Positions 5,829 to 50,754 of a stretch of DNA of 64,000 bases are shown piece by piece. The notes beneath the pieces were generated by a model, which was given only the letters and a program-made list of their open reading frames with translations, was not told the DNA's origin and made no database searches. The stretch covers positions 4,795,001 to 4,859,000 of the forward strand of contig BSQZ01000029.1 of the NCBI GenBank assembly GCA_033239005.1. The letters are read 5' to 3'. Within the stretch, counting starts at the first letter, position 1. Every line of letters starts with the position of its first letter. This stretch comes from Lamellibrachia satsuma (Eukaryota > Annelida > Polychaeta > Sabellida > Siboglinidae). The position numbers and the translations under genes are program-made.

Positions 5829-6402
5829 GAAATGGCTTACTTGACATTGGCTTACTTAACATTGGTTTACTTGATACTGGTTTATTTGACATTGGCTTAC
5901 TTGACATTGGTTTACTTGACATTGGTTTACTTGACATTGGCTTACTTGACATTGGTTTACTTGACATTGGCTTACTTGACATTGGTTTACTTGACATTGG
6001 CTTACTTGACATTGGCTTACTTGACATTGGTTTACTTGACATTGGCTTACTTGACATTGGTTTACCTGACATTGGCTTATTTGACATTGGTTTACTTGAC
6101 ATTGGCTTACTTGACATTGGTTTACTTGACATTGGCTTACTTGACATTGGTTTACTTGACATTGGCTTACTTGACATTGGTTTACTTGACATTGGCTTAC
6201 TTGACATTGGTTTACTTGACATTGGTTTACTTGACATTGGCTTACTTGACATTGGTTTACTTGACATTGGTTTACTTGACATTGGTTTACTTGACATTGG
6301 TTTACTTGACATTGGTTTACTTGACATTGGCTTACTTGACATTGGTTTACTTGACATTGGTTTACTTGACATTGGTTTACTTGACATTGGCTTACTTGAC
6401 AG
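5829..6402. repeat. 15-bp minisatellite, about 38 copies
   Basis: The unit is TTGGYTTACTTGACA, with nearly all variation at one C/T position (GCTTAC versus GTTTAC). Because 15 is a multiple of three and the unit contains no stop in several frames, long ORFs run on both strands: a five-residue AYLTL/VYLTL repeat on plus and SKPMS or NQCQV on minus. There is no supporting gene structure on either side, so coding is unlikely. The two unit types form an irregular C/T pattern, which suggests unequal exchange of mixed blocks. Confidence 0.95.
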
Positions 6403-11647: not shown

Positions 11648-11655
11648 TATAAAAG
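11648..11655 (+). promoter_or_regulatory. TATA box of the five-exon helical-protein gene
   Basis: A perfect TATAAAAG lies in a CpG-rich stretch, 134 bases before the proposed initiator ATG. Transcription would be expected to start near 11678. After that point the first ATG is the one at 11789, in good context (A at -3, G at +4). A second TATA-like string (CTATTTATAT) lies at about 11612. A strong TATA box is usual for inducible, tightly controlled genes. Confidence 0.6.
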
Positions 11656-11788
11656 ATGGCACGCTCCACCAACGGCAACAACATAAAAGTGAAGACGCTT
11701 GCCAGTCGGCCGAGAGAGCAACTGTTGCCGATACTCGACTACGCTACTACTACCACCCATTGTTCAATCGCGTTCACTGCAGACCACG

Positions 11789-14700
11789 ATGGATACACGA
11801 GCTTGGTGCTTTCTCAGCATCCAACACTACATGACAAGTAAGTCCGTTTTACAGGAGAGGTTTTCGGGTCGAGCCGGTTCCGGCTATGCGGGGTCCAGAA
11901 GTACGGTAACGACTGTGATATCCTTGCGGCTTTCGGCTGCCGCTACCGGCCGACTTCCACTTTCTGATCAGCCGTAGTGTCATCATTTATTCTCCTGTTT
12001 GCCTGGAACTGAATTATGGCGCGTGGACAGTCTGTGGTCGTAAATTCGCCACGTGTCGGTGGCATCGGCCCAACGTCTACCCGACCGTGTCGTCTGCCAG
12101 TGCTCGATTCCACCACGGATGGTTGGCTTAGGAATTTAGAAACCTACTCACAAAATGGTTATTGTAAACGCTTTGTTGTGTGCGTGTGCGTGCCTTATCG
12201 CGACGCTGTGTTCTCGTCGCACGAATATTAATTCGCGTTTCGGTTGACATTAGCAAGGTTGAGCGCGCGTGCAATCTGTCACCTGATGTTCTTTCCTTTG
12301 TAGACGTGTGCACCGTGATTACGATATTGGTATCTTTCTCGGCACTGACAGAATCCCGGCCAACGACAACGACGACGGTTCTGGCGCCCACAACGACAGC
12401 GACTCAGCCTCGCTGGCATCGACCCTGCGCAGGGTCAGCGCCGGTCAAACTCGGACACATATGGGAACAATATGAAGGCAGAGTGCCAACGATAAACTCG
12501 GCACATCACTTCGAAAGGATCGCCGAAAAAGCGAACTGGCTCAAAGCCAAGGTTCACACGCTCAAATCGCTCTATGTAAGTACGCGGTCGTTACCGGATT
12601 ACCACTTATCCACACCCAGTGTATATAAGCTTGCTGCTGTATTATCGCTAACCTACACTCAGTGGTCGATTCATATTCTACTTCGTGCCGCTCCATTGAC
12701 GAGTCTTATTACCTGTTATATGATCCGCTGGCAAAGTTGTAGCGCTACCACCAGTACGGAAATACCAACGCGAAATTGTTGTTTTTACGGCTGACCGATT
12801 ATGCGAGTATAACCCGGCATTTGGTGGCGGGCATCAGTGGGCGCCGCTGTCCCCCGCTACCTACCGCTGAGGACGCAATGACAGTCTGAGAGTGTCAGTG
12901 AATGCAGAAGACTCGGTTAATAGGCGGCCCTTGTGACAGGTTGTCGTCTCCCGTCGATCTAGGCAATTGGGGTAGGTGTAGTTGTGTAGTTAGGGCTGAG
13001 GTCAGGGGTTCGGAATCTTCCCCATTATCATGATGATGAGAATGGGTGACGTCTCAAAATGTAGCTATAGTCACACAACCGAACATAACAATTATCTTAA
13101 CTTGGCCGATACGCTAATACAATGCTACGTCTAATCCAGCATTCCAGCCAAATTTTTTCGTGTCTTGCAGAGGCAGCCAGAACCACTTGCCATTCACCGG
13201 CAAGTTCCCCAAATGCCATTTGCCTATGTCACACCCAAATATAATCAGATCGCACTAGAGGTAGTGTGCCTTCGCATAACGCCGCCAGTGCATTCGCGCG
13301 GCTTCGGCGGTGGCACAAAACGTGTGTTCGAGCACAAACACGGCGACATTCGCTGACGTCTGACGGGGCAGAGACGCCGGGGTTCACACGCGGTACGAAG
13401 CGCGGGCCATTTCACTGGCAGCGCCAGACGACTCTCGACACGCGCGCGCGAAGTCAGCGGAGCGCTGCGGCTGTCTGCGAGTCATTTGTTCTCGTATCGC
13501 CGAGCGGACGCGATTAAGATACGTCGCTGCCAAGGCTGCGATCGTTGTTTCCGTTTGCCCGATGGGGTCAATCCAATGTAAACGCGTTAACGCCAATATA
13601 CCCAACCTGCTGACTGACGTGTTCATACCGCAGCACCTGCGCAACGTCGCGGAAGTACCGAACAAAACATCATTTAAGTAACTACTATGACATGTCAGAC
13701 AACTAAAAAAACCGACGCGCCCCTGCTAAGTCGATTAAGTTACCGTAAACACTCCCTGGCAGTCTTAATGGATGAGATAATAGCCCACACAGTGGACGGA
13801 AAGGAAGACTCAGCTAATTTATTAACTCCCCGTTCCGTAAGCGGATCTTTCCAACAACCTGTGATAATCGCACTATCAACCTCCTTTTTTGGTATTTATC
13901 ACGGGGGTAAATAAACATGTTTATCGATACAACTGCACGAATTATTGCACTACATAGACGTGCTAACAATTTCGAGTATACCTTTCCTGGATGAAAGGGT
14001 CACAGTGCATAAAACATGATAGCGTATTCGTCATGTCATAACCAACGAACGGTCCCTAACATACGTTAGAATGCCTGCGCCAGCGTCTATCAATTAGGGG
14101 GATTGCTTGCGTGATCACTGACACTCGCGTACCCGGGTACGTTGCGGTCGCTAAACGCTACAACAGCCGCCGCCAACGCAGCAGTGCTAGACCATAGCAC
14201 CTCGCATTCTCGCATCCCATATGGTGGCGCAAGACAGCAAATACGACGTCGACAATATTAATAATAATAACAATATATGGAATTAGCGCTACAAATACAC
14301 AACGGTGGTATACGTACGTACGTACGTACGTACGTACGTACGTATGTATGTACGTATGTATGTATGTATGTATGCATGTATGTATGTATGTATGTATGTA
14401 TGTATGTGTGTATGTGTGTATGTATGCATGCATGCATGCAGGGAAGCAGGCACGCACGCACGCATGCATCGTGCAATATGTCTGCATGAATCGTGCATAC
14501 ATACATGCATACATGCATGCATGCATACATAAATGCATGCATGCATGCATACATACATACATACATACATATATACATACATACATACATACATACATAC
14601 ATACATACATACATACATACATACATACATACATACATTCCATAGTTTATTGTTACGCTTCCAGGATATACGTATAATTCATGACGGCTAACTGAACAAT

Positions 14701-17571
14701 AATGTTTAAAATATCAAATCGTCCCGTATTTGGGCCAAGGTTTATCAAGATGCGGTAGCCCATTTCAAAATCGCGTCGTAAAGAAAATTTGGCGTTGCAC
14801 AATCACTAAAATGTCATTAACCTACGCCTGTCCCGGAAGGTCGATAAAAACTAGGATAGACGTTCCCCCGGGGTACGTCTGTCCGTGAGACATATCTACC
14901 CCTATACACCGGATGACCGCTGGTGCAACGGTTGGACTCACTTTCGCCGTGGTTTAGGTGAAAGGGTTATGCACTAGTTATCGGCGACGCGTTAATTAGC
15001 GCGAGATAACCGCTTGGTGGAGTATCGGCTAATGACGTGTGTTGCTGGATCGAGCGATTAACTTACTGTCGTCAGTGTCGACACTGAACTAAAGTCGATG
15101 TTCGCGTTCAGGTAACCTCCCCAAGTAGTATTGCATCAGATAAATCGACGCGGGCCACATTCCACAAACTTAATGCGTGTAAAATGTTATCCAGACATTT
15201 ATTGTAATCTGGTCGTGCCTGATTAGATAGGTATAATAACATTACTTTGATAGTGATAACCGGGCGCTGGGTATGGGACATCGCTCGGAATGTCGTACTT
15301 GGCCAAGGTTCACGCACAATACACTAATTGTGTCTTTAAGGAAGACATCAAACAATTTCCTGAATTCGAATAGGAGGAAGTGCGTTGTGACACCATTGTT
15401 ACCAAGGGATAATCACCCAGTAAACAGGCTAACCACCACCGTGCCGTGTTGGACACGATACGAGCAGTCTAAGCGCTCACTGCGTCAGACGTCGGCTGAC
15501 TGTCGTCACGCCGCTGACAGGCGCCCACTGCTCGCTAATCGTTCATCAAACCGAATAAGTTATGCACGCCCCCGCTCCTCGTACGATGTCCATATATAGC
15601 TAATGTGAATAGCGTCGAACGCGTCCCTCAATTAGTAGCCGCACTAACTTCCGATTGGTTGACCGACAACGCTCATGTACAGACGCCCTACGGCTATATC
15701 GATGAGCTTAGAGAACGGAACGGATTCCAGTTGGGGTGAAGTGGGGACCTTAATAATATAAACATTTGAAATATCCACCAAATTATAAGGTATTTTCATT
15801 AACGCTGACCCCCGTGTTTAGACAATGTTATCTCTATCTCTACACCGTGTTCCTAACACAAATCCTATGTTTGTTGTTATGGAATAAAAGAGTAAATCCC
15901 ACAATGTTAGGTGTAAATTTTCCATAACAAACAAATGGAAAATGGAAAAACGGTGTTTAATTCAACGAAAAAAGCATAACCCTTTGCAACGAAGTTGAAC
16001 AACGCTTAAATCGATTTCTCTGTCCAAGAACCGATTTGCGATGCTACGCACGCAAGGCGGCGCATGTTGCGTCAGCATCTGCAAGTATTATTACCATAAC
16101 TCCAGATCAGTGAACCCGTAACAAACAGGTTTACCACCGGAAGCGTTAAATCATGTAAATTTTGTCGCTAGCTGGCTGCGGAAAACAAGTGTCTATTTAC
16201 ATGTGAAAGTCAACAAGCCTGACTTCCTTATTGCCAGAATGCATTTCTCGCAGACAATAATAGTGAGGGTTTTCTTTGTTATGAAATTTAACACACTAAG
16301 ACTCAATTGTATCACTACGCCGGTGCAGAATACGGCTGGAAAATCGACTTTCATCGCACCATGTATATTCGACAGGACAGAGTATCAAGTCTTACAGGAA
16401 GAAGATTCAACAGTACAAGAAGGGGAACGTTTTATACATTATATTACATTATTGCAGCTATCAGGAAATGTACACCGATTTCTTAAGTGTGTTGTTAAAA
16501 GACGGGATTCCAATTTGCCCGTAAATACGTTTTTGTCCTATTCATTCAGTGGCTACTGGAATGTGTGCGAGCGTACATCTTTAGGACGAAGCTATCTATT
16601 GCTGGGTTTCTAGAACCCTCTTCCTGATTAGCTCAGTCTGCGGCGAAATGCTGAGTCATCGGGTTGTTCGATATACAGGACGTTTATAGCAGCAAGTGGT
16701 AAATGCCGGAAAACATGGCCGTCATAAATTCCCGAAATATTTTCGGAACGCGTAATTTCTAATTTCTGTACTACTATTTCTGCTGTCGTTAAGTTTCTCT
16801 TATAAGTGTGATTACTATTTTATGTGATTATTATCACAGCTAGGATAATTTCCATGCATTATTATTACCGGAAATTCAACAGCGATTCGCCTAATGCCGG
16901 GCTGTGGCTTAGAGGTCTACTGTTATTTGTGCTGATCGTGGCCTACCAACTACGTGACTACAAATTTAATCTATATGAAACATGATTAATGGATTTATTG
17001 TCACTACCGTTCAATCATGATGTATTTACTACCACGAGGTTAGGTATATCCATAGATACGAAGTCGTAGGCCAAGGGGTATGCATCTCGGGTTATGTTTG
17101 TGTTTTGGGGACACATAGTTCCACCGGAATTCAGCTACCAATTAATATAATATGTGCAAGTACGGACGATGTGAAGAAATAATTCGTTTTCGTCTTTCAC
17201 CAGGTCAGAGAGCGGTTTGGCGACGAGGAATTCGTGCGAGAACTCGATCAGATGATGCTGGACGGAATGCCGGCTCCCACGCTAACAGAACGCAGCATCT
17301 ACAACGTTGACGTAAGTTTCTGCATCACTATACACCTGAGTAACATACAGTGGCTAGCAGGTCTCTGACACACATTTAATGGTATAAAGACTGATCTTTC
17401 TGTCGTACAGTCATGTTATATAATATAAACTATATTTATTGTGACATCTTGACCATTCAAATATGTTTAATGAACCACAATGTTTAATATAATTTGACCA
17501 TTCATAAACAAACAACGTTCGAGTTATATTTAAAAACTCTTAAAACACGTTTAGGCGGTCAATATGTCTGA

Positions 17572-17649
<78 letters not shown>

Positions 17650-20499
17650 TATACTATACAACAAGATTTTACGATAAAAACGATGAAACTTCGCACCTTT
17701 AATTACGCCAATCTCCGGTGTAATGATTGTAAACTATTCCAATTTACAATCCGCTACAAACTAGTTACGAGTGACTGCTCCCGCCGAGTCGCTCTCAAGT
17801 CAATTGCGACTTCAGCGCAAACAGACAAATACCAGCTATTTGTAGCGGCCTATTTTCCTCGAGCACCTGGGATACCCGAATGTCGAGTGTAACATAAGTC
17901 AGAACGTAACCAGCTACGTGAAACAGGTGCGACCTATCTATGTATGCACGGAGGCAGGCCACCATCTTCACGCTGCGATAATCACCACGAGTGAGTCTGT
18001 TCGCTTTCAGTAGAACGATCATTAAGCCCGGTTAACTCACGGTTTGTATTTCTGGTCCAACGAAGCGGAACGTTGCCGCCTATCATTCATGGGTAATATC
18101 AGCGGTGTTCGTTACAACTTGACGGCCAATTCGTGGTATTTACGCTCGATAATCGAAAGACAGGTCCTTCATCATCGTATACGCTTTCATCCGTCTAACA
18201 GCGCGTTATTTTATCCCGGACAAAGTGGTTCTACGCGTCTATAATTCAGGCAATCACAGCGTATGTAGTTTGTAATGACGACAATTTTGTAATCTCGTGT
18301 TTAAAATTAAGTGGTTTCGTGTTTGCTTGCTTAAAAAAGTGGACAAATGAGACAACAGTTTTTCATTTTGTGACGCAACCCGAGCAGAACGACAAGCGTT
18401 GTCAGCTGCGTCGAAGCCCTGAGTTGCCAGCAACGTGCCAAGGCGCCTTAATTCCACGGCCGTCACCGACCAAGTTACCATCCATCAGTGGGGGACCTGC
18501 CGGCGTGCATGTAGGCGCGAGCGTGCGAACGCCGCTGCGTGCGACGTCGCGCGTGCGTTGCCTGGCGTACGACATCGCTCGCGCATTGCCTGGCGACGAC
18601 GCCAAAACGTCTCGTGACGTCACAACGCCTGCACGCGCTTGACGCGCCCCGCTATGGCAATGATCCTGAAAGCGCCTGAAACATATGGTGTGTGCGTTTT
18701 TGGCCATTTCGCCGCCGATGCGTCTGAAATAACGTTCTGTGAACTCGGGAGGTCGAGGTTGAATACCCTCTTTCCTCAGGTACTTAGCCGCGCGGCGGGG
18801 TATAGCAAACCAGACGCGTTTTAAATGACCCCCATCATGTTTAGGTCAGGACGGACACTAAGATATGTAGGCCCTACATCCGTCATCAGCAGTCGGCACA
18901 CACACAGTTGTCCATCTGACAAGCACGGAAGGTGAACTGAGCGAATGTAGCAGCAGACGACATTTACAACAGGCGACATTTACAATAACTATCTTACGCC
19001 ACTTCCACGGTACCATATTGACCTGCGATTATTTGGATGTACACTCCCAAATGTCACCTGTGACGAGCACCGATACAGTCGCAAGGAATGATTGATGGCC
19101 AAACGACGCAGACGACACACAAGCAGATTGGCAGTTTGCCAGCAGACTGTTGCGTCATCTTTTGTCATTAAGGCGACGAAATTATTAGGTGCTTAGCCCG
19201 TAGCCAGGCCGCTATAAAACACTCGTCGTTCATTCATGACGGCCGACGCTTTTGCCGGCGAAATCTCAGAGACACCGATCCAGTTATCGTGCAACTTGAA
19301 CAGACGACAACAGCGACGGGGTCGCGCCACTTTCCCGCCCACCTTCATGTTGCGTTCATCGATGCGGCAAACGCCGCCGAGCAAATTGGACGGGAGACGT
19401 CGACTAGAAAACTCAGTCCTCGACGGACAAAACGCTTCCGGTAATAAATGGTGCGCCATTTATTAGGCGGATAGTCGCGTGATGCGGCTGTATTGTAAGA
19501 CCGCGCCGCCACAACAAAGCCCTTTCTGGCGATCTAACACCGCCGGGCGCGTTTGTTGACGCAGTCTGGCCGCCTAGCGTGTGTGGTCTGTTCCCTAGCG
19601 TCCCCGATCTCCCACAGAAAAAGGCTCCTGAAAAATACACCGAATGAACAGCGTCTCTCGTTTGATACAGGACGTATAAACCTTGTCAGAATTGCGACAA
19701 CCGACAGAAAATACCCATCACGATGCTCATTGCTACTTTGGCGAGATCGCATTATAACTATGCACAAGAAAATAAACTTTAGCTATCTGATGAATGGCAG
19801 AACTGACAATTACTGATTACATTAGCAACTATTGATCTCCAGTAGACAGCGACGCCAACGGGCTAACATTTTAGATTACAGTGGCGACACATAGTGTACA
19901 ATTCTGAATCTCTAAGGACCTAAAGCCCTGCGATATGTTTGGGGGTATTGCTCGTTTATGTATATAAAGCACGACACAGATAGCGAATGGCTCTCGGGAA
20001 TGGATCCACATAACACGAGTCAGCCAATTGTTATACATATCATTTGCCATTTCAATATGTTAGAGAGTTTAAAATGTCCAAATGGAGAATGACTTATATT
20101 TTACTTTGGTTGACGATCGTGTTTCTCTGGTTGCAGATACTGTCGACCGTACAGAAGTCGATCGAGAACCTCGCTCGCGGCGCCGTGTTCGTCGAGCAGG
20201 CGAGGATAGACGAGACGATCTACAGCCACGAGGAAACGTCGTACCGGACTCACTTCGAAGACGTCGAGAATCAGGGCATTTACTGGCTCATGTGCGAAAT
20301 GCAGAAGTTTCTCGCCGCCAGTGGGCACTGGGTGAACAGTGACGTCACGCGCGACATCATGAGCATCCAGATACGCGACATCACGACGCGATCGAACAGA
20401 CACGTACGCGACTACATCATATTGCGTGACCTTCAGAAGATCCTCTACAAGGTCAACGTGGACTTTTCGATGCTAAAACAGCGGACAAGTAGACGATGA
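11789..20499 (+). CDS. Candidate secreted long-chain four-helix protein (class-I cytokine-like), five coding exons
   Basis: Exons: 11789-11837, 12304-12575, 13171-13260, 17204-17311, 20137-20499 (TGA at 20497). Every junction is GT-AG with pyrimidine-rich acceptors (TTCTTTCCTTTGTAG, GTGTCTTGCAG, CGTCTTTCACCAG, TCTCTGGTTGCAG). The frame stays open for 293 residues with intron phases 1-0-0-0. Residues 18-30 (VCTVITILVSFSA) form a hydrophobic signal-like stretch, followed by a Thr/Pro-rich segment (36-52) suited to O-glycosylation. The rest is mostly helical: about 64-107 (helix A), 130-165 (B), 170-232 (C) and 260-289 (D, containing RDYIILRDLQKILYKVNVDF). Exon 3 is a proline-rich loop. The only cysteines after the signal are C58 and C226. 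IL-6, G-CSF and growth hormone genes share this five-exon, 1-0-0-0 plan, and helix D is reminiscent of the IL-6/CNTF group. Gene existence is well supported; the cytokine assignment is inference. Confidence 0.68.
13261..17203 (+). other. Intron 3 of the helical-protein gene (3.9 kb)
   Basis: Apart from the palindromic microsatellite this intron holds no recognisable element. A 136-codon ORF at 16203-16613 has no family resemblance and is probably chance. Confidence 0.5.
14309..14640. repeat. (ACGT)n/(TATG)n-(CATA)n palindromic microsatellite
   Basis: (TACG)n at 14310-14343 passes into (TATG)n to about 14430, a mixed GCAT/GCAC centre with a unique piece at about 14465-14500, and then (CATA)n to 14638. 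TATG and CATA repeats are reverse complements, so the roughly 330-base tract can fold on itself. It lies in intron 3 of the five-exon gene. The ORFs on both strands (MYVCMYVC..., YIHTYIHT...) are repeat artefacts. Confidence 0.93.
17574..17647. repeat. (TA)n microsatellite
   Basis: A nearly pure TA run of about 70 bases in the last intron of the five-exon gene. Confidence 0.95.
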
Positions 20500-28681: not shown

Positions 28682-31600
28682 TTAAGTTGAGTGAATAGTT
28701 TCGTGTTCCATGATCTTGGCAATTGTATTTAGCTGCATGTTGCGAGTGCCTTCATAGATCGTTCCTGTAACAGAAAATAATACTGCAACTAAATAACTTT
28801 GGCAACAGTGAAATTACATTTACAATAGTAAAATTACAGTTATAACAACAGTTATATTACAGTTATGACAACAGTTAAATTACAGTTATGACAACAGTTA
28901 AATTACAGTTATGACAACAGTTAAATTACAGTTATGACAACAGTTAAATTAGTTATGACAACAGTTAAATTACAGCTATAACAATAGTTAAATTACAGTT
29001 ATAACAATAGTTAAATTACAGTTATGACAACAGTTAAATTACAGTTATGACAACAGTTAAAGTACAGTTATGACAACAGTTAAATTACAGTTATGACAAC
29101 AGTTAAATTACAGTTATGACAACCGTTATATTACAGTGTTGACTACAGTTAAATTAGTTATAACAACAGTTAAATACAGTTATAACAACAATTAAATTAC
29201 AGTTATAACAACAGTTAAATTAGTTATAACAACAGTTAAATTACAGTTACAGCAATAGTTAAAAACCCTTGATTCAGTACACAACCTACATTATAAACCA
29301 GAGTAGGGGTGAAATATATTTATTTTATCAAATATAAATACTGTATTCGTCCTAATCAGCATACATGGTTTAAAAAAATTAATTTTTTAACTGGAACAAA
29401 TTTCATGAAATGTGTTCCAATAAGCACCTAAGTTTGTAGATCAAGATGATGTCGATGACTCGCTCGGATGATATGCGGCCCTGGATGTGCAAATGGCTAA
29501 TGCCACTTGACAACGACGATGTAGAACCAATGACTGAAGAAACCACATTGACTTTTATTGTCACTGACATTGGTCCTTAGTCAGCAACGTAGTTCACGTG
29601 TGCTTGTCGAAAGAACTGTCCAAAGCAACAACACGCCAGTACTTTCCCAATAACGTTAAGTCGGCAGGAAATATAGAAACAATTGCCATCAACTAAAACC
29701 CCACATGTTTAAACCTGTTTGTAGTCCATAGCTCCTTAGTGTACCAATCCCACTGTTTATGACTGGACTTGTTAAACCGACTAGAACTGTCTAACCCTTG
29801 TTTTTGTGGGCTGCTGAGCTTGGGTTTCTTTAATATTTTAGCACAACAAAAGTTTTTTATTGGATTGTATTGTATAGATCTACGTTGGAAGTCGGCGATC
29901 CTCATTCACATCTGTACAGCACCATCTGGTTGACTAGTGTAACACAACTGGGGACCTGTTGACCGGTATTTATTCTAAATGAAGCGTTTCTGTACAATTA
30001 AAATTACCTCGATCCTTGGAACTTCTGATTTCAAAGCACATCAACAATGTAATAGTATTATTAATGTGCTTTAATATTTACTTATGTAGTATATTTACCA
30101 CCAGAAATTGCATAAAACGTGAATTCAAAAATGGTACATCTTCACCAAGTCTCACTCAATTGGCCTTCTCATTTACCAATCAACGTAATTGTTCAGTTTG
30201 AGAGGTGAGTGGCATTGTGACAGTGTATTTATAAGTACGTATAACATATTGGTTGATTAAAAATAATATCTATAAAAAATCATGAAAATAATGTTTTTCT
30301 ATCGCTCAATTGTTCTGATGTTTGTTGCAGCTGAATAAATACTAAGCGGTCCCTTACTACACTCCGTACAGTACACTCACTAGATGGCACCATTGTTGTC
30401 TCGCCACATGAGCATGCTACCGGTGTACGCCGAGTAAGCGTATCAAAAACTACCTATGAATGCTTATTATTTATATTTATTTATACATTCACGGATGGTC
30501 AAAAGTATATCAGAGCACTGCAAGGTCTGCTGATATTGGTAAATATTTGATGAGAGTAAAAGTTAATCTGTCATTGCAGAACTGTGACACATCGATGGAG
30601 AGGAAATTATACTCGAGTTGCATGATTTCGTGCACCTTTTGGTGGGGGTGTACGCTTATTAGAGCATGTACGCTTATTAGTGCGAATACGGTATGTCCTA
30701 TTTTAATATCGAAACACAGGTACAATTCATAAAATCCATTTACCAATATTTAAGATCCTAAAATGTGCATATTCAAGCAGGTTAAATACACCAAATACAA
30801 ATTGTTGTATTTTGTGTGTATTTGATCAAATATGGGATTCTGGAAAAAGTCAAATGCAAATATGCAAATTCAGCACTGAGCTAAGCTTGCCATAAGCAGG
30901 TAAAGATGAGGAAGAATCTGGGCTTTTTAGTTGATGAAGGACATAATATATCTTGAATAAGCCATTCTATATAATATTGTGGGTAAATGCAAATTTACAC
31001 AAATTGGCCACCCACCGACGATGCAATCTCTGTAATATTTCTCAACTGGAAACTCTTTGGAGATTCCGACACCGCCCAGCAATTCAACGCACTTCCTCGT
31101 TGTGATGCACGCCACCTGCAAGTTTGGACAGAACGTGTCATTTCATGAGATTAAGTGGCTCAGTTCTAGTGTGTTGAAGTACCTCAAGTACAGAACCAAA
31201 GCAATACATATCAAAATTAAGTACAATTTCATCACATCGGCGTCAGATTAATGTCTGTTTTAATGATTTGAGTCAAACAAATGTGATTCCATGGTTATGA
31301 GTCTAGGTACATTTTTATTGAAGACTTGTAATAAACTTCCTCCGATACTTAGTCATAACTAATGTGTAATCAAGGAGGACTGCTTGTTAGTGTCTTGACA
31401 TGTCCTGAAACAAGTATTTAGTGACAGCAGTGCAAAGTAGAATGATTCATCCAAAGTTCTCAGTATCTTGGCTATGTGTTCAATGTAGGACACCAGTGAC
31501 ATTTACTGGAAACGATAAGAACACATAGTCAGATTGAAAAAACTGTCATTGAAGGATAAACTCAAATGTATGTGTACAATGTACATGCCTCAATTAATAT

Positions 31601-34600
31601 TTCTTTTTATTGGATGCTCATCTTTTTTTGTTCATTTTCTTAATATCTTTATTTTAAATATGAATTTATTTTCCAGCCTACTTCAGCAGCATAGAACTTG
31701 GCCATTGCAGCTTCCTTGACAAAGTCCATGCCTGCTTCCTTGCGTCTCGCTGCGTTGTACACCAGGAGGCGTGCCGCCTCTATCTGGGTGCCCAATTCTG
31801 CGATGGAATGCTGCATCGCCTTAAAAATAAATACACTGTATATAATTTCATTTAGTGCAGGTTGAAAATATCTCATTTAGTGCAGGTTGAAAATATTTCA
31901 TTTAGTGCAGGTTGAAAATGACAATATGCACATAGGAATGCAGAATGAGAAAATAACACAAGCTTAAATTCCATTCAAGTCTTCAGTGTAAAACCTTCCT
32001 CAATATTTGTATGAGTTAATGAAACTATATTACTTTACTGAATATTAATATCTATGTAATAATTTTTATAAAACCTTCCTACTATGAAGATTTACTTGCA
32101 GTACATAATATATTTATAGAGGTTTGCAGCATTAGTTAAAGGTTGCATTTCCCACCTGGAAATCCCAGATCCTCTTATTGAACTGTTTCCTCTCAAGCAG
32201 GTAGGGAAGAGTGTTGTCAAGGCAACCTTGAGCCATTCCTACCAACTGTTGGGAAAGTAGGAAACCAATGAAGATGTTAGACTAATACACCCTTAAAACT
32301 CCCTCTACATTGCATTTAGCTCATTACGAATCAGGCTCGTTGAAGTTCAAATTTAACTTTTGTTAAAATTATCAAGATTTATTATTAGATCAGGTAACTA
32401 CTGAAAGTGTGAATAGCTCCATGCCATAGTAGGGGTGCGGTGGCATAGCAGTTAGAACGTCAGGCCCTCAATCGAGAGAACCCAGGCTCGAATACTCTCG
32501 CAGCTGTTTTGAAGCTTTGGCAATTTCGATCATCCCACATTGCCATAGTTCACTCAGCTGTATATACGAGTACCTGGCTACAGACAGGTGGATATCAGAA
32601 TGAATAGTATTCGCGCAGTAATTGCAGTGTGGCTGAATGCTTCCCAGAGAAGTCGAAAAGGTGTTGGAATGAATAGATCTGCCAGGGGGTGAAGTATAAA
32701 ACGGTTTGAACAATCCCAAGGACTGGATACAGCGCTAAATAAGAATGTATATTTACCTTTTACATTTATAGTATATAGAGCTGGATGGCTTTTCCCAAAA
32801 ATATTTTAATAGTTTGTCCAATGATTTAATAACAATAATTAACTTCTATGGCACCTATATCCTCAGGAACCTGAGCTCAGAGGTGCAACAAAACAGAATC
32901 ATTAAGCATAGTCGTGAACAGGGATGTGCAAAAGTCATTTCAGAAGAAGGGACAACCAAAGATTTATGGTAGAAATGCAATTTGGAATAAATATGTCTTG
33001 AATTTTTTTGGAAGAAAGCTATAGATTCAGGTGTTTTCAAAGTGATGAGCAGTTCATTCCAGACCTTAGGTGCAGCGACAGAGAAAGCATGTTTGCCAAA
33101 ATTAAGTTTTGTTTTAGGCACAACAAGTTGTGAAATTGAGAAATCTGAGCTGCCTAGGAATATTTGAAAGATGTAGGAGACTAGCCAAGTAGGGTGGTTG
33201 TTGTGTAGATAGACCACGATATGTAAGAGAGGACAGCTTAAAATTAATTTGATAAGTAACAGGAAGCCAGTGTAACTGTTAGTAGTGGTAGTGATGGTGA
33301 AAAACAAGGCGCCCTGAGTACCACACATGCCAGACAATTTTGTACTCGTTGGGGTTTAGCCAAGTCTCTTTTAGCAATGTTATTTAGTAGTGAATTACAA
33401 TAGTCAAGGCGGCTACTAATTAATGCTGTTGATAATGTTTTAGCAGTAGATATGTGATGCCAAATTCGACGGAGATCACGTATATGATAGAAACAGGATT
33501 TGCATACTTGAGAAATATGCTGGTGAAAGTTGAAGTCACTATCAAAGACAACACCTAGATTACGAACAGTATCTGGTGGGAATGTATCACTGCCAAGCAG
33601 TTTAAATGGAAAATGGCTGATGACTAACTAAATAAGACATCTGCACAAACAAGCCACAGTGGAGATCAGACAGGTGTGTCCTAAAATGATTTTAAAACAA
33701 ACCATAGTGGAGACCAGACAGGTGCGTCCCAAAATATTTTTAAAACAAGTCTTGGTGGAGACCAGACAGGTGTGTCCCAAAATTATTCTAAAACAAGCCA
33801 TAGTGGAGACCAGACAGGTGTGTCCCAAAATGATTCTAAAACAAGCCATAGAGGAGACCAGACAAGTGTGTCCCAAAATGATTCTAAAACAAGCCATAGA
33901 GGAGACCAGACAGGTGTGTCCCAAAATGATTCTAAAACAAGCCATAGTGGAGACCATACAGGTGTGTCCCAAAATATTTCTAAAACAAGTCATGGTGGAG
34001 ACCAGACAGGTGTGTCCCAAAATGATTCTAAAACAAGCCATAGAGGAGACCAGACAGGTGTGTCCCGAAATGATTCTAAAACAAGCCATAGAGGAGACCA
34101 GACAGGTGTGTCCCGAAATGATTCTAAAACAAGCCATAGAGGAGACCAGACAGGTGTGTCCCGAAATGATTCTAAAACAAGCCATAGAGGAGACCAGACA
34201 GGTGTGTCCCAAAATGATTCTAAAACAAGCCATAGTGGAGACCAGACAGGTGTGTCCCGAAATGATTCTAAAACAAGCCATAGAGGAGACCAGACAGGTG
34301 TGTCCCGAAATGATTCTAAAACAAGCCATAGAGGAGACCAGACAGGTGTGTCCCGAAATGATTCTAAAACAAGCCATAGTGGAGACCTGACAGGTGTGTC
34401 CAAAAATATTTCTAAAATAAGTCATGGTGGAGACCAGACAGGTGTGTCCCAAAATGATTCTAAAACAAGCCATAGAGGAGACCAGACAGGTGTGTCCCGA
34501 AATGATTCTAAAACAAGCCATAGAGGAGACCAGACAGGTGTGTCCCGAAATGATTCTAAAACAAGCCATAGAGGAGACCAGACAGGTGTGTCCCGAAATG

Positions 34601-35595
34601 ATTCTAAAACAAGCCATAGAGGAGACCAGACAGGTGTGTCCCGAAATGATTCTAAAACAAGCCATAGTGGAGACCTGACAGGTGTGTCCAAAAATATTTC
34701 TAAAATAAGTCATGGTGGAGACCAGACAGGTGTGTCCCAAAATGATTCTAAAACAAGCCATAGAGGAGACCAGACAGGTGTGTCCCGAAACGATTCTAAA
34801 ACAAGCCTTACAGGAGATCAGACAGGTGTGTCCCGAAATGATTCTAAAACAAGCCATAGTGGAGACCTGACAGGTGTGTCCCGAAATAATACTAAAACAA
34901 GCCATAGTGGAGAACAGACAGGTGTGTCCCAAAATGATTCTAAAACAAGCCCAGACAGGTGTGTCCCAAAATATTTCTAAAACAAGTCATGGTGGAGACC
35001 AGACAGGTGTGTCCCAAATTTATTCTAAAACAAGCCATAGAGAAGACCAGACAGGTTTGTCCCAAAATGATTCTAAAACAAGCCATGGCGGAGTTTATTA
35101 TTCTAAAACAAGCAATAGAGGAGACCAGACAGATGTGTCCCAAAAATATTATAAAAGAAGTGATAGAGGAGACCAGACAGGTGTGTCCCGAAACGATTCT
35201 AAAACAAAGCGAGTGAAAAATATCATTGAGGAGAGAACTTGAACTACTACTGCAATCTTTATTGCTTATTACGTTTTATACAACACGATTCACAAATAGC
35301 AGTATAAAGAGGAAAGTAAATGTAACTTAGAACCAGAAAATATATTAATTGGGTATTCAAACATTGTATTTGGTAACTGATATGTGTAATTAATTACAAA
35401 AAGTCCCCATTTCGATGGGCTACGTACCTGTGACCCAATCCCAATACGACCTTCATTCAGCATCCCTATAGCGTATTTGTAGCCCATTCCCAGCTCTCCC
35501 AGGATGTGGCTTTCTGGAACCTAAACATATATTGGAGGTGCTTCAACGTTTAAAAAACAACATCTGCAATTTTTCAATAGAAAAATTTAACCTTC

Positions 35596-38600: not shown

Positions 38601-41600
38601 ACAAATTGCGGTTTCTTAAAATGCATTTGGACGATCAAGAGTTGTATGTTAGATTTAATTTATACTAAATAATATGATTTTATTATAAACATGACTAGAC
38701 TGTGTATTTTCCACAAGAGTGTGATTGCCTTACTTGAGATGGGTTTGTGTTTGCCATGACCAGGAAGACTGCTGCATGCTCGGCGTTACTGATCCACATC
38801 TTCTCTCCGTTCAAGGTGTAGCACTCTCCGTGTTTCGTCGCAATCGTCTTCAGGGCAAAGGCATCAGACCCCGAGCTTGGCTCTGACAGACAGAAACTGC
38901 CCACCTGAGATAAACATATTTATGGCATCAGATCATGGGTGAATTTGGTGTGCGTGTGTCGGGGGGATGGATTCTGTATTTTGAACAAACAAAAAGGGTG
39001 ATTAGTTAATCTGGTTGGTTGGCGGCCCAAAGAATAGCATAGCAAATATATAAACTTTTTTAACTTACCATGTTTGTGGCTAACTGTGGCAGGTAGTTTT
39101 CCTGTTGTTCAGTTGTTCCATATCGCATGATGAGCATATTGATGAGGGTGTTCTGGATGTCCACCAGCACACTCACTGACATGTCCACCTTTGCTAGTTC
39201 CTCGATCACAATGTTTGTTCCAAAGAATGTTGATCCAGTACCGTTGTATTTCTCATCGATTTCTACACCCATGAACTGTTGAAAAGAAAGTGCAAAATAA
39301 TGTTTATCTACTCACGTATTAGTTGGCTGAAAATATGATGCAAAACGGTAATGAAAACAAGATTTGCCATCCAAGCCAAAGGCCCAGATGGCAAGTGGAC
39401 AAGGAAGCCATTGGCTTATCGAGAGTCCAACAATGTTCATCTACTTATAACCTGCCCTCCTGAGATATGTCTACCTTGTTTTTAAACATATTCACGCTGC
39501 TAGCAGTTACACAATCTGTAGACAATTTGTTCCATTCATTTATTGTCCTCTGTGAGAACGAGTGCTTCCTGATGTCCAATCTACATTGATCCTTTACTAA
39601 TTTTACCTCATGTCCTCTAGTTCTGCTATCCTTCTTGAGTGAGAAAAACATATTTCTATCAATATTTTCATACCCATTCAATATCTTAAAAACTTCAATC
39701 TGATCTCCTCTTAACCTCCTTGTCTCTAGAGTTGTTAAACCACATTCTTTCAGGCGTTCTTCATAACTAAGGTCTCTCAGTTCTGTATCATTTTAGTTGC
39801 TCTCCTTTGTATGCGTTCAAGTGTATCTACATCCGAAACTATTGCTATTTTCCGAAAAAAACTCAAGACATATCTATTCCAAATTGCATTCCCACCATAA
39901 ATGTTCGGTTGTCCCTCGTTTCTGATACTGACTTTTGCGCGTCCTTGTTTACGATTACGCCTACTGATTCTGTTTTGTTGCGCCTCTGAGCTCAGGTTCC
40001 TGAGGATATAGGCGCCATAGAAGTCAATTATTATTATTATTATTATTCTTACGATACAGTCTCCATGCTTGTATACAGTATTCTAAATGAGGTCTAACTA
40101 TTGCTTTATAAAGAGGTATAATTAACTTTTTTCCCTTGTATGTTATGTTTCTTCTAATCAATCCAAGAATTTGATTACCCTTTGAAGCGGCAATACGACA
40201 CTGCTCAGAAACTTTCATATCAGCGCTTATTGTAACTCCTAAGTACTTTTCTTTTACAGTAGTACCCAGAACAGTATCTCCCATTTTATAGTTTACATTC
40301 AAGTTCCCATGTCCTGTATGTAGGCATTTACATTTCCCAAAATTGAACAACATCTGCCATTTCTCAGACCATTTCACTAATCTATCTAGATCGTTTTGTA
40401 AATGTTGTTTATCACCATCAGTATTAACTTTTCTAAACAGTTTTGTGTCATCCGCAAATTTCAGTACGTTACTTGTTATACTGTCGTCCAAGTCATTGAT
40501 ATAAATTAAGAATAATATAGGTCCCAATACTGATCCTTGAGGTACCCCACTCAAAACCGATTTCCAATTTGAAACTTCTCCATTTACTACAACTCGTTGT
40601 CTTCTGTCAATCAGCCATTGTTCTATCCAGTCAGTTATGCTATCCCCGATACCATGGGCTTTTAATTTAAGTAGTAATCTTTGATGTGGCACTTTGTCAA
40701 AAGCTTTCTGAAAATCTAAGTAGATAATATCTACTGGCGATCCCACGTCTATCCACTTAGTGATTTCTTCCAAAAAACATAACATATTTGTTAAGCATGA
40801 CCTCGCTTTAAGGAATCCATGTTGAGATGAATTTATTAATTTATGCTTAACGAGGAAGTCCACCATATGGTATTTAATTAACCTTTCTAATAATTTACAA
40901 ATCACTGACGTTAAACTTACTGGTCTGTAATTCTCTGATTTATTTCTCGAACCCTTTTTAAATAATTACATACATAAAAACATATGAACACAAACTCAAG
41001 CAGAAAAATAAAATTCAAACTGTATATTCTAGTACATGATACTAATATGTCACTACACCAATCTAATTCACAATATAATTACTATAGACTAAAAGAAGAC
41101 ATGTACAAAACACACGCTCATAAAAATGTTGACGAAAGCAATTTAAAAAAAACGGGTTGATGAAAAAAAATTATATTTAAGAAAACAATGCCAGAAAAAT
41201 TATGTTCTTTACTATATTATGGCATGCATTACTGCAAAAAATAGTGCTTTCAATACAAATCCATGCCAGGTCTGAAGAAGATTCAAGTGATTCTGTACTA
41301 ACCCCATGATCAAACAGGTCCTTGATTAATGAAGCTGGCATGTGAGATATCTCGTCCATCTCTTTGACCAGTGGACCTACAACTTCCCTCGCAAACTTGG
41401 CCACTGAAATAGGACCAACAGTGGACCATGGGTTGTGGAGTTACAGTGTACATATCTAACATATGCAATGTTATTCAAGTGTCCTCAAGAAACTATGATA
41501 ATCTGGGAATTGTTTTTCCAAAATTGCTTTAAAATCCACCCTCAGAATGTTGTGTCTAGCAAAGTTAGTAGATACAAGGAGGTGAATTAGATACCAACAG

Positions 41601-42509: not shown

Positions 42510-43030
42510 CTGTGTACACCATCAAGTGGTAGTTAGTCTGTGTACACCTGTGTACACCATCAAGTGGTAGTTAGTCTGTGTATACCTGTGTACACCATCA
42601 AGTGGTAGTTAGTCTGTGTACACCTGTGCACACCATCAAGTGGTAGTTAGTCTGTGTACACCTGTGTACACCACCAAGTGGTAGTTAGTCTGTGTACACC
42701 TGTGCACACCATCAAGTGGTAGTTAGTCTGTGTATACCTGTGTACACCATCAAGTGGTAGTTAGTCTGTGTACACCTGTGCACACCATCAAGTGGTAGTT
42801 AGTCTGTGTACACCTGTGTACACCATCAAGTGGTAGTTAGTCTGTGTACACCTGTGCACACCATCAAGTGGTAGTTAGTCTGTGTATACCTGTGTACACC
42901 ATCAAGTGGTAGTTAGTCTGTGTACACCTGTGCACACCATCAAGTGGTAGTTAGTCTGTGTATACCTGTGTACACCATCAAGTGGTAGTTAGTCTGTGTA
43001 CACCTGTGCACACCATCGAGTGGTAGTTAG
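42510..43030. repeat. 38-bp minisatellite, about 13 copies
   Basis: The unit is CACCATCAAGTGGTAGTTAG TCTGTGTACACCTGTGTA with GTGCA/GTGTA and TACA/TATA variants that alternate in a partly regular way. It lies just upstream of the ACADSB start. Confidence 0.94.
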
Positions 43031-43359
43031 TTTGATGAAAGCTGTAAAAATATCAAAACATTAATTGTGAACTGTTGTTTGTAAGAACGAGGCAGTCTGC
43101 ATTAACAATGAGCAGGCAGCAATCGGTCGTATTTTATTTTGTCATGTGTGATTATTTTTCATAGTCAACCATATCTTTTTTCTTTGTAATGTTTCGCTTG
43201 CTTTAAGCTGCCTTTATCACACCAACTACTGTTAATGGCATCACTGGTGGGCAGTACTTCATCTTCTATACACTAGGTGGCCCACATACACCACACCCTC
43301 CTTGGGCCAGGGTTACACAATTCTGAGTTGGGTGAGCAGATCTGCAAATGACAGCAAAA

Positions 43360-48532: not shown

Positions 48533-50754
48533 ATGCCTAGAATCTGTATTGCGGGTGGACGTTCCAATCAAACATCGGAGACAGTAAGTCTACATAAATT
48601 TCCTATAAAGGATAGGAAAATGTGTGCGCTTTGGAATCGTTTCGTTCGCGTGAAACGGGCTGACTGGACCGAGCCGTCGGCGCACTCGATATTGTGTTCC
48701 GCCCACTTTCTTCGATCTGATTTTGATCGCTCTCTAACATCAGTTGGGGTTTAGCAAAAAACCTGTACTGAATGACGATGCGGTGCCATCAGTCTATGCC
48801 AGCACTCACAGGAAGGTAGCCACAGACGCAAGTGGAACGGCGATTGTTACTTCCAGCGGTGACGAACCGAAGCCAAAGGCAAAGAGGCGAAAAAGAAAAC
48901 GAAGTGCTGCCCTGGTGAAACTGTCAGCCCACCGGGTAAGCTTAAAAGTTACAATTATGTGTTGTTTTCAAGTGAGCACATCTACCTAAGATTCTATTAT
49001 TAGTTACCATATTATGTATTTGTCAAATTATTATTCATATTGCTATGTCTATGACATGACAGTTATATCCATAGTCATACATACCTAGTCCTACGCCTAT
49101 ATATAGGCCCTAGCCTAGCCTGTCAGTGTCAGTACTCAGACTCAGTACGCCAAGAAGACCATTAGCCAGGTCCAGCACATGTTTACCAATTAGATGTTGG
49201 AACGTGGCTGTGAGATGTCTGTCTAAATGAGTATGTGCAGTTTCCCACTAAGCTTGTCTGACTGGTGTTTATTTCATAATTTTGGTAGATTGCTGTTGCA
49301 TTTCAGAATGCTTATAGTGTGCATATGTTCGAAATAAAATGTACAATCCCAATGTTGTAATTTTTTAACACATTTAAACATTCGCATTATTACGTTGTCC
49401 AGAGACTTGAAGACAAAAAGCTGCAGACCACCACCAGTACAATAACCAGTCTCGAGTCAACAGACCACCACCAGTACAATAACCACTCTCGAGTCAACAG
49501 ACCACCACCAGTACAATAACCACTCTCGGGTCAACAGACCACCACCAGTACAATAACCAGTCTCGAGTCAACAGACCACCACCAGTACAATAACCAGTAT
49601 CGAGTCAACAGACCACCACCAGTACAATAACCAGTATCGAGTCAACAGACCACCACCAGTACAATAACCAGTATGGAGTCAACAGACCACCACCAGTACA
49701 ATAACCAGTATCGAGTCAACAGACCACCACCAGTACAATAACCACTCTCGGGTCAACAGACCACCACCAGTACAATAACCAGTATCGAGTCAACAGACCA
49801 CCACCAGTACAATAACCAGTATCGAGTCAACAGACCACCACCAGTACAATAACCAGTCTCGAGTCAACAGACCACCACGAGTACAATAACCAGTATGGAG
49901 TCAACAGACCACCACCAGTACAATAACCAGTATCGAGGCAACAGACCACCACCAGTACAATAACCACTCTCGGGTCAACAGACCACCACCAGTACAATAA
50001 CCAGTATCGAGTCAACAGACCACCACCAGTACAATAACCAGTATCGAGTCAACAGACCACCACGAGTACAATAACCAGTATGGAGTCAACAGACCACCAC
50101 CAGTACAATAACCAGTATCGAGGCAACAGACCACCACCAGTACAATAACCACTCTCGGGTCAACAGACCACCACCAGTACAATAACCAGTATCGAGTCAA
50201 CAGACCACCACCAGTACAATAACCAGTATCGAGTCAACAGACCACCACCAGTACAATAACCAGTCTCGAGTCAACAGACCACCACCAGTACAATAACCAC
50301 TCTCGAGTCAACAGACCACCACCAGTACAATAACCACTCTCGAGTCAACAGACCACCACCAGTACAATAACCACTCTCGGGTCAACAGACCACCACCAGT
50401 ACAATAACCAGTCTCGAGTCAACAGACCACCACCAGTACAATAACCAGTATCGAGTCAACAGACCACCACCAGTACAATAACCAGTATCGAGTCAACAGA
50501 CCACCACCAGTACAATAACCAGTATCGAGTCAACAGACCACCACCAGTACAATAACCAGTATGGAGTCAACAGACCACCACCAGTACAATAATCAGTATC
50601 GAGTCAACAGATAGAGACGAGGAGAGTCAGCCTGAGGAGGAATCGCCAAATGTTGGAACTTCTGGTTGCACATGTACCTGTGTCATACACCAGTCTCCTC
50701 CTAAACACACCATGCCTCGTGCTGTTCAGATTCGACAAAGCATGCGTAGCAAAG
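48533..50754 (+). pseudogene. THAP-domain protein gene, frameshifted and split by a coding minisatellite
   Basis: Exon 1 (48533-48935) opens MPRICIAGGRSNQ, then SLHKFPIKDRKMCALW and HSILCSAHFLRSDFD: a THAP zinc-dependent DNA-binding domain with C5, W34, P48, C55, H58 and F59. The second zinc cysteine expected about four residues after C5 is absent. Near 48740 the frame shifts by one; the next frame gives GFSKKPVLNDDAVPSVY, the domain's closing AVP motif, then a basic KAKRRKRKRS stretch ending CAC CGG|GTAAGC. Exon 2 starts after CAG at 49403 (RLEDKKLQTTTSTITSLEST), is filled by 32 copies of a 37-bp unit, and resumes as DRDEESQPEEESPNVGTSG to AAAG|GTAATT at 50754. Later exons are not found. It may be a recent pseudogene or carry assembly errors. 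Confidence 0.7.
49427..50610. repeat. 37-bp minisatellite, 32 copies, inside THAP exon 2
   Basis: The unit is ACCACCACCAGTACAATAAC CAGTMTCGAGTCAACAG; 1184 bases is exactly 32 units. Variants are CAGTCTCGAG, CAGTATCGAG, CACTCTCGGG, CAGTATGGAG and CACGAGTAC. A five-unit block (185 bp) at 49827-50011 is repeated almost exactly at 50012-50196. One unit would be coding (TTTSTITSLEST plus one base). From the third unit the frame meets TAA. Confidence 0.96.

Follow-up and report, generated by a model that had tools for sequence, protein, structure and literature searches.

The gene at positions 11648..20499 of a 64,000-nucleotide stretch of the tubeworm Lamellibrachia satsuma genome (contig BSQZ01000029.1, positions 4,795,001 to 4,859,000; the whole stretch is called the window below) likely encodes a secreted long-chain class I cytokine with four helices, of the IL-6/CLCF1/CNTF/G-CSF type, and judged from sequence the genome has at least two paralogs of it. 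The broader proposal, that annelids possess several genes for true IL-6-superfamily ligands and that these genes retain the exon plan of vertebrates, we hold slightly more probable than not. An earlier note, made from the window's letters alone, had read the gene as an invertebrate relative of the IL-6/CNTF-type cytokines, and this reading was probably right in kind: a paralog with the A/AB/BC/D exon plan, a match to helix D of CLCF1, a colinear alignment with CNTF once one exon is left out, and alignment scores averaged over three genes all point the same way, but the fold is not confidently predicted and weak searches found no gp130-like receptor. Strict membership of the IL-6 family rests on receptor use, so that on sequence the assignment is probable only at the IL-6/CLCF1/CNTF-like level.

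The window gene and its Ridgeia ortholog

The gene is known here from genomic sequence and gene models, not transcripts. The earlier note's five forward-strand exons of 49, 272, 90, 108, and 363 nt, with GT-AG introns throughout, intron phases 1-0-0-0, and a predicted product of 293 codons plus stop, were borne out by the sequence, and for exons 2, 4, and 5 the agreement with the Ridgeia and paralogous genes goes beyond chance. The TATA box it named was also recovered by pattern scan (TATAAAA, 11648..11654), about 140 nt upstream of the start codon. The ATG lies in a good context (ACCACGATGG) and is preceded by an in-frame stop at 11690; another ATG is found at 11656, immediately 3' of the TATA box and upstream of the proposed start codon.

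Exon 1 (11789..11837, 49 nt) encodes the beginning of the proposed signal peptide and ends in phase 1, while exon 2 (12304..12575, 272 nt) carries the remaining signal peptide, a Thr/Pro linker, a PRWHRPCAG stalk, and the proposed helix A, and ends in phase 0. What had been called a signal-like segment is, by hydropathy, a hydrophobic core at residues 17 to 33 (mean hydropathy 1.51; residues 18 to 33 lie at 12306..12353), with intron 1 just ahead of it so that the signal is split. The translated linker is Thr rich at residues 37 to 52 (12363..12410). Helix A is proposed at residues 82 to 107 (12498..12575), a segment that lines up with the first helix region of CNTF and has its counterpart in helix 95-124 of a low-confidence model of the Ridgeia protein. 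Exon 4 (17204..17311, 108 nt) encodes the putative AB loop; it starts with VRERF and contains LDGMP (residues 156 to 160, 17258..17272), of which DGMP aligns with the same four residues of CNTF. Exon 5 (20137..20499, 363 nt) would encode helix B (residues 174 to 202, 20137..20223, including AVFVEQARIDE and conserved in both paralogs), helix C (residues 206 to 235, 20233..20322, with an invariant Cys226 at 20293-20295), and helix D (residues 262 to 290, 20401..20487), followed by the stop; none of its 120 residues is proline. Cys226 and the N-terminal Cys58 are the only two cysteines of the predicted mature protein.

Exon 3 (13171..13260, 90 nt) is doubtful and may be either a cassette of optional use or no true exon. 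With splice-site strengths scored by typed weights, it has the best acceptor within introns 2 and 3 and the weakest donor in the gene (gtagtg), it is absent from the Ridgeia model, and the reading frame is kept with or without it. When it is omitted the intron phases become 1-0-0 and the protein is colinear with CNTF from helix A onward; when it is included, CNTF can be aligned only from DGMP onward. The Pro-rich loop that had been described as an exon of its own is thus present in the model, but the exon itself is in question.

A search over 5.8 billion proteins found a single annotated relative, a "hypothetical protein" of Ridgeia piscesae (NP493_58g05020, here P0001) that is 78% identical over 95% of the query; the same search returned the window's own open reading frame (ORF), P0002. 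A second search added the exon-5 ORFs P0003 (metagenomic; for exon 5, Ridgeia and P0003 are 93% identical) and P0004, and a third added nothing; wider annelid relatives were not found in these word-based searches, which would miss relatives of low identity. Identity with Ridgeia reaches 196/208 in the core (residues 52 to 107 and 138 to 289) and falls to 11/18 in the linker, 9/17 in the signal core, and 3/16 in exon 1, which at the sequence level is the conservation pattern of a coding gene, with P0001 its ortholog. The end of exon 2, the start of exon 4, and the join of exons 4 and 5 are identical in the two models. P0001 lacks exon 1. Its first codon falls within intron 1, where the window has ATA, and the Ridgeia start is therefore likely to be an artefact of gene prediction; the part of intron 1 that adjoins exon 2 (12180-12303) contains no stop in the frame of exon 2 and is similar to the N-terminus of the Ridgeia protein, explaining why that model starts there. 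The Ridgeia sequence (FVD) appears compatible with the same tttgtag/ac acceptor. One study dates the divergence between Lamellibrachia luymesi and three other tubeworms to about 65 Ma (PMC9921365).

P0004, also a metagenomic exon-5 ORF, matches Ridgeia up to ETSYR and then continues in another frame, as an assembly error or a broken copy would. Two pattern matches on viral contigs were not relatives, and among 23 on prokaryote contigs one locus, L010, showed 39% identity over 54 residues, which we judged to be chance.

Paralogs and the exon plan

Exon 5 was searched against the 735-Mb assembly of the same genome at a low threshold (E ≤ 10) and gave three matches: the gene itself and two minus-strand loci, C110 (C110:357644-365567 of genome G000; 43%, E 0.0066) and C34 (C34:64412-67143; 37%, E 1.0). 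Both align at the same segment of exon 5 and keep AVFxEQARxDE, the helix-C cysteine, and a cag acceptor at the exon start. Each has, some 1.2 to 1.3 kb upstream, a further exon in phase 0 at both ends with a gtaag donor, which starts with xxERFRG, contains LEGLP or LDGLP, and matches window exon 4 (VRERFG...LDGMP); this AB exon and the following BC exon measure 171 nt each in both paralogs. The B+C exons end at the equivalent of window Gln229, in C34 at a gtaagg donor, with an acceptor 886 nt farther on opening a helix-D exon terminated by a stop codon, and in C110 (C110:362467-362637, minus strand) at a GC donor, CAG/GCATGT, rather than GT. The D exon of C110 was found at 57% identity over 61 residues (E 1.8e-16). 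The signal/helix-A exon of C110, with PRWNCPCSG where the window gene has PRWHRPCAG, a phase-1 acceptor, and a phase-0 donor, was located by local alignment within one fetched stretch (score 51, next best 31); besides the gene itself, a whole-genome search with window exon 2 listed a single weak match, which was unrelated. When the C34 B+C exon was used as the genome query, four matches appeared, namely the three genes and a weak match with an internal stop.

IL-6, G-CSF, and growth hormone genes have five exons, phases 1-0-0-0, and helix A, the AB loop, helices B and C, and helix D in separate exons. In C110, exons 2 to 5 encode signal plus A, AB, BC, and D in phases 1-0-0-0, with exon 1 not located and one GC donor; in C34 the last three exons of this plan were located, and its helix-A exon was not found within 1 kb upstream. 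Window exons 2, 4, and 5 each have a homolog in a paralog, and the positions of Cys58 and Cys226 are both kept in C110. The claim that helix D occupies the last exon holds for the paralogs, but the last exon of the window gene contains B, C, and D. We suggest that C110 retains the canonical plan, that the window gene most likely lost the intron between C and D, and that exon 3 may be an addition to its AB loop.

A different explanation is that this is a siboglinid- or annelid-specific secreted all-alpha protein with no cytokine kinship, its exon plan and helix-D likeness being coincidental. Phases 1-0-0-0 are not rare in themselves, and the fold is unproven, with no family or PDB match to a cytokine; against this stand the A/AB/BC/D order of C110 with its phase-0 joins and the like arrangement of the last three C34 exons. 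Together with the profile and control comparisons given below, these lead us to regard the all-alpha explanation as unlikely, though as the likeliest of the alternatives.

Both paralogs carry more AB-loop cysteines than the window gene. A Pfam VEK-30 match to C110 covered 10 residues, fell under the cut-off, and was discarded.

Similarity to IL-6-family sequences and predicted fold

Sequence similarity to the IL-6 family appears weak but not absent. A two-row core profile scored 23.9 against helix D of CLCF1, a value reached by 0/250 and 0/150 column shuffles, and among 15 groups CLCF1 ranked first, also outscoring 15 reversed decoys. The matched stretches are the C-terminal helix on both sides and align ungapped over 26 to 29 residues. 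With C34 added the CLCF1 helix-D score was 22.2 (nulls: mean 9.35, maximum 15.1, n = 150; reversed maximum 13.2, n = 19), and with C110 added it was 19.4 (null maximum 14.6, n = 150; reversed maximum 14.1, n = 19), so that all 150 nulls and all 19 reversed decoys fell below the match, which counts against the all-alpha explanation. The 150 nulls used here and in the averaged comparisons below were drawn after dropping the plus-strand pieces of L010 that overlap its matched stretch.

Alignment scores averaged over the three genes placed the IL-6 family above nulls (p 6e-5 to 1e-3) and seven all-alpha control proteins at null level, a further point against an unrelated all-alpha protein; these controls and the cytokine set were our own choice. 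The same tests bear on the possibility that the gene encodes not an IL-6-like ligand but one resembling Upd, or a long-chain class I ligand from another branch (growth hormone/prolactin/leptin type). CLCF1, CNTF, and IL-11 ranked above growth hormone (GH), prolactin (PRL), and leptin in all three settings, Upd lying outside the comparison, and leptin stayed at null level (-0.2 in one test; -0.21, 0.06, and 0.40 in three settings of another); we therefore rate this alternative improbable. Less probable still, to the point of being very hard to credit, is a class II helical cytokine of IL-10/interferon type: class II cytokine genes have phase-0 introns only, whereas the first intron here is in phase 1, and IFNA2 was at null level. 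Pairwise scores were weak for IL-6 and G-CSF.

The structural picture comes largely from AlphaFold2 run on the Ridgeia protein alone, at a predicted local distance difference test (pLDDT) of 38 and a predicted template modeling score (pTM) of 0.24. This model has two N-terminal helices followed by four long ones, A (95-124), B (148-183), C (188-216), and D (243-272). A mini-helix (127-138) separates A from B, a short turn joins B to C, and 26 residues lie between C and D. Such an order would suit a long-chain cytokine and is no proof of one. The four long helices of the earlier note rest on it and on the absence of proline from exon 5. A model of exon 5 built from three rows, without helix A, reached pLDDT 63 and pTM 0.57 and shows seven helices, not three long ones. 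Among the best 50 of its 67 Foldseek matches at E ≤ 10 no natural cytokine was prominent, and de novo IL-4 and G-CSF mimetics stood among the weak rows. A helix-moment test at 100 degrees was uninformative.

Several results weigh against a cytokine of this type. Pfam gave no family for the window product and no cytokine match for it or the paralogs, PDB sequence searches returned nothing relevant and no cytokine, and none of the Foldseek matches reached E ≤ 0.001; with the two models this poor, an up-up-down-down bundle must be called unproven. In the first null set 1/212 sequences reached the CLCF1 score, this being one of 58 pieces of L010, a locus fetched for its similarity to P0001. A grouped CLCF1+CNTF+CT-1 profile scored 17.6, under its own reversed decoy at 18.7, and a family helix-D profile built without CLCF1 failed to pick the worm helix D, two results that favor the all-alpha explanation. 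With the full family profile apoE ranked above the worm sequence, at helix D no other family member was prominent and that of CNTF does not match, and the window gene alone gave no group signal. The 1-0-0-0 phase argument is weak by itself, the more so with exon 3 doubtful, and the separate A/AB/BC/D plan is not that of the window gene, where B, C, and D share exon 5. On the receptor side, the FxxK motif and a gp130-like receptor, both treated below, were not found. The silence of the sequence searches says little, since phmmer with CLCF1 or LIF as the query likewise failed to retrieve any further member of the family from PDB at E ≤ 1.

Signaling context and comparison with known ligands

Pfam IL6Ra-bind gave no matches in the genome, with the control also silent, and EpoR_lig-bind gave four sub-threshold matches (E 4.3 to 9.5), with matches in two prokaryote control genomes as well. 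A gp130 D2-D3 query produced 30 matches (best E 0.0012), of which the 20 on contig C5 were provisionally taken for fibronectin-type domains; a scan of L031-L046 for WSxWS-like motifs and inspection of L047 and L048, covering 14 of the 30, found none. A gp130-like receptor was thus not found by these weak, partly examined searches, which do not show it to be absent. STAT exons are present (two matches above cut-off), and two weak sub-threshold matches to JAK were not convincing. In IL-6 family members that use LIFR, helix D opens with the FxxK motif of site III; the absence of FxxK from the window product and from the D exons of C34 and C110 argues against LIFR-type use of site III.

For microsynteny, Pfam run on 10 of the 2,350 stop-to-stop ORFs in the surrounding 264 kb gave no gene above cut-off. 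An ORF at 40024-40905 (minus strand) looks by eye like the reverse transcriptase of a long interspersed nuclear element (LINE)-type element, with similar-looking ORFs elsewhere in the 264 kb. Large tandem arrays occupy 33647-35093 (48-bp unit), 49424-50611 (37 bp), 42510-43031 (38 bp), 5833-6401 (15 bp), and 28803-29263 (23 bp).

If the gene is a cytokine as proposed, its signal would be cleaved at about residue 33 to 36, leaving a Thr/Pro linker, possibly O-glycosylated, that leads into the stalk. LIF and OSM have a disulfide between N-terminal and helix-C cysteines, and stalk Cys58 may pair in the same way with Cys226 of helix C, as suggested by these being the sole mature cysteines with both positions kept in C110. 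Helices A to D would form an up-up-down-down bundle in which the AB and CD crossovers are long and the BC turn is short, and the ligand would join two type I receptor chains of gp130/Domeless type and signal through JAK to STAT.

A 2026 survey of metazoan phyla records IL-6 family cytokines, which use common beta-receptor signaling subunits, in vertebrates only, with IL6R, JAK, and STAT reaching into molluscs and JAK reported in the annelid Owenia, and raises the possibility that the ancestral module used alternative ligands (PMC13203501). Because its BLAST thresholds, as given there, were E ≤ 1e-5 and identity ≥ 30%, ligands this diverged would have been missed. Another study places a receptor-JAK-STAT core before chordates (PMC3296744). 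Among the matches listed, judged by titles and the starts of abstracts, we recognized no report that describes an IL-6-type ligand from an annelid or any other lophotrochozoan. If our reading is correct, IL-6-type ligands, and not just the receptors and JAK-STAT, would predate the protostome-deuterostome split, and the gap left by vertebrate-only ligands would be closed by a family of protostome ligands whose genes share the exon plan of vertebrates. The age of IL-6-type signaling would then become testable, and the PRWxxPC stalk, the xxERF AB exon, the AVFxEQARxDE of helix B, and the helix-C cysteine would provide a handle for finding annelid and mollusc relatives.

A close invertebrate system, by description and not by sequence comparison, is Drosophila Unpaired, whose members are ligands of the IL-6R-like receptor Domeless according to the same survey (PMC13203501). 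Among human proteins, CLCF1 aligns ungapped with the window product at helix D, near the C-terminus of both, and CNTF, if exon 3 is omitted, is colinear with it over the span from helix A to helix C, DGMP and helix B included. LIF, CLCF1, and CNTF genes keep helices B to D in one last exon, as the window gene does. The product differs from CLCF1 and CNTF in its extra N-terminal PRWHRPCAG stalk and Thr linker and in having neither FxxK before helix D nor Pfam-level similarity. The paralogs resemble IL-6 and G-CSF in that AB, BC, and D each have their own exon with phase-0 joins, that cysteines occur near the start of the AB loop, and that L-x-G-L-P stands ahead of helix B, and C110 likewise has phase 1 before its signal exon; the paralogs depart from these genes in the length of the AB and BC exons (171 nt versus about 110 and 147 nt in vertebrates) and in the GC donor of C110.
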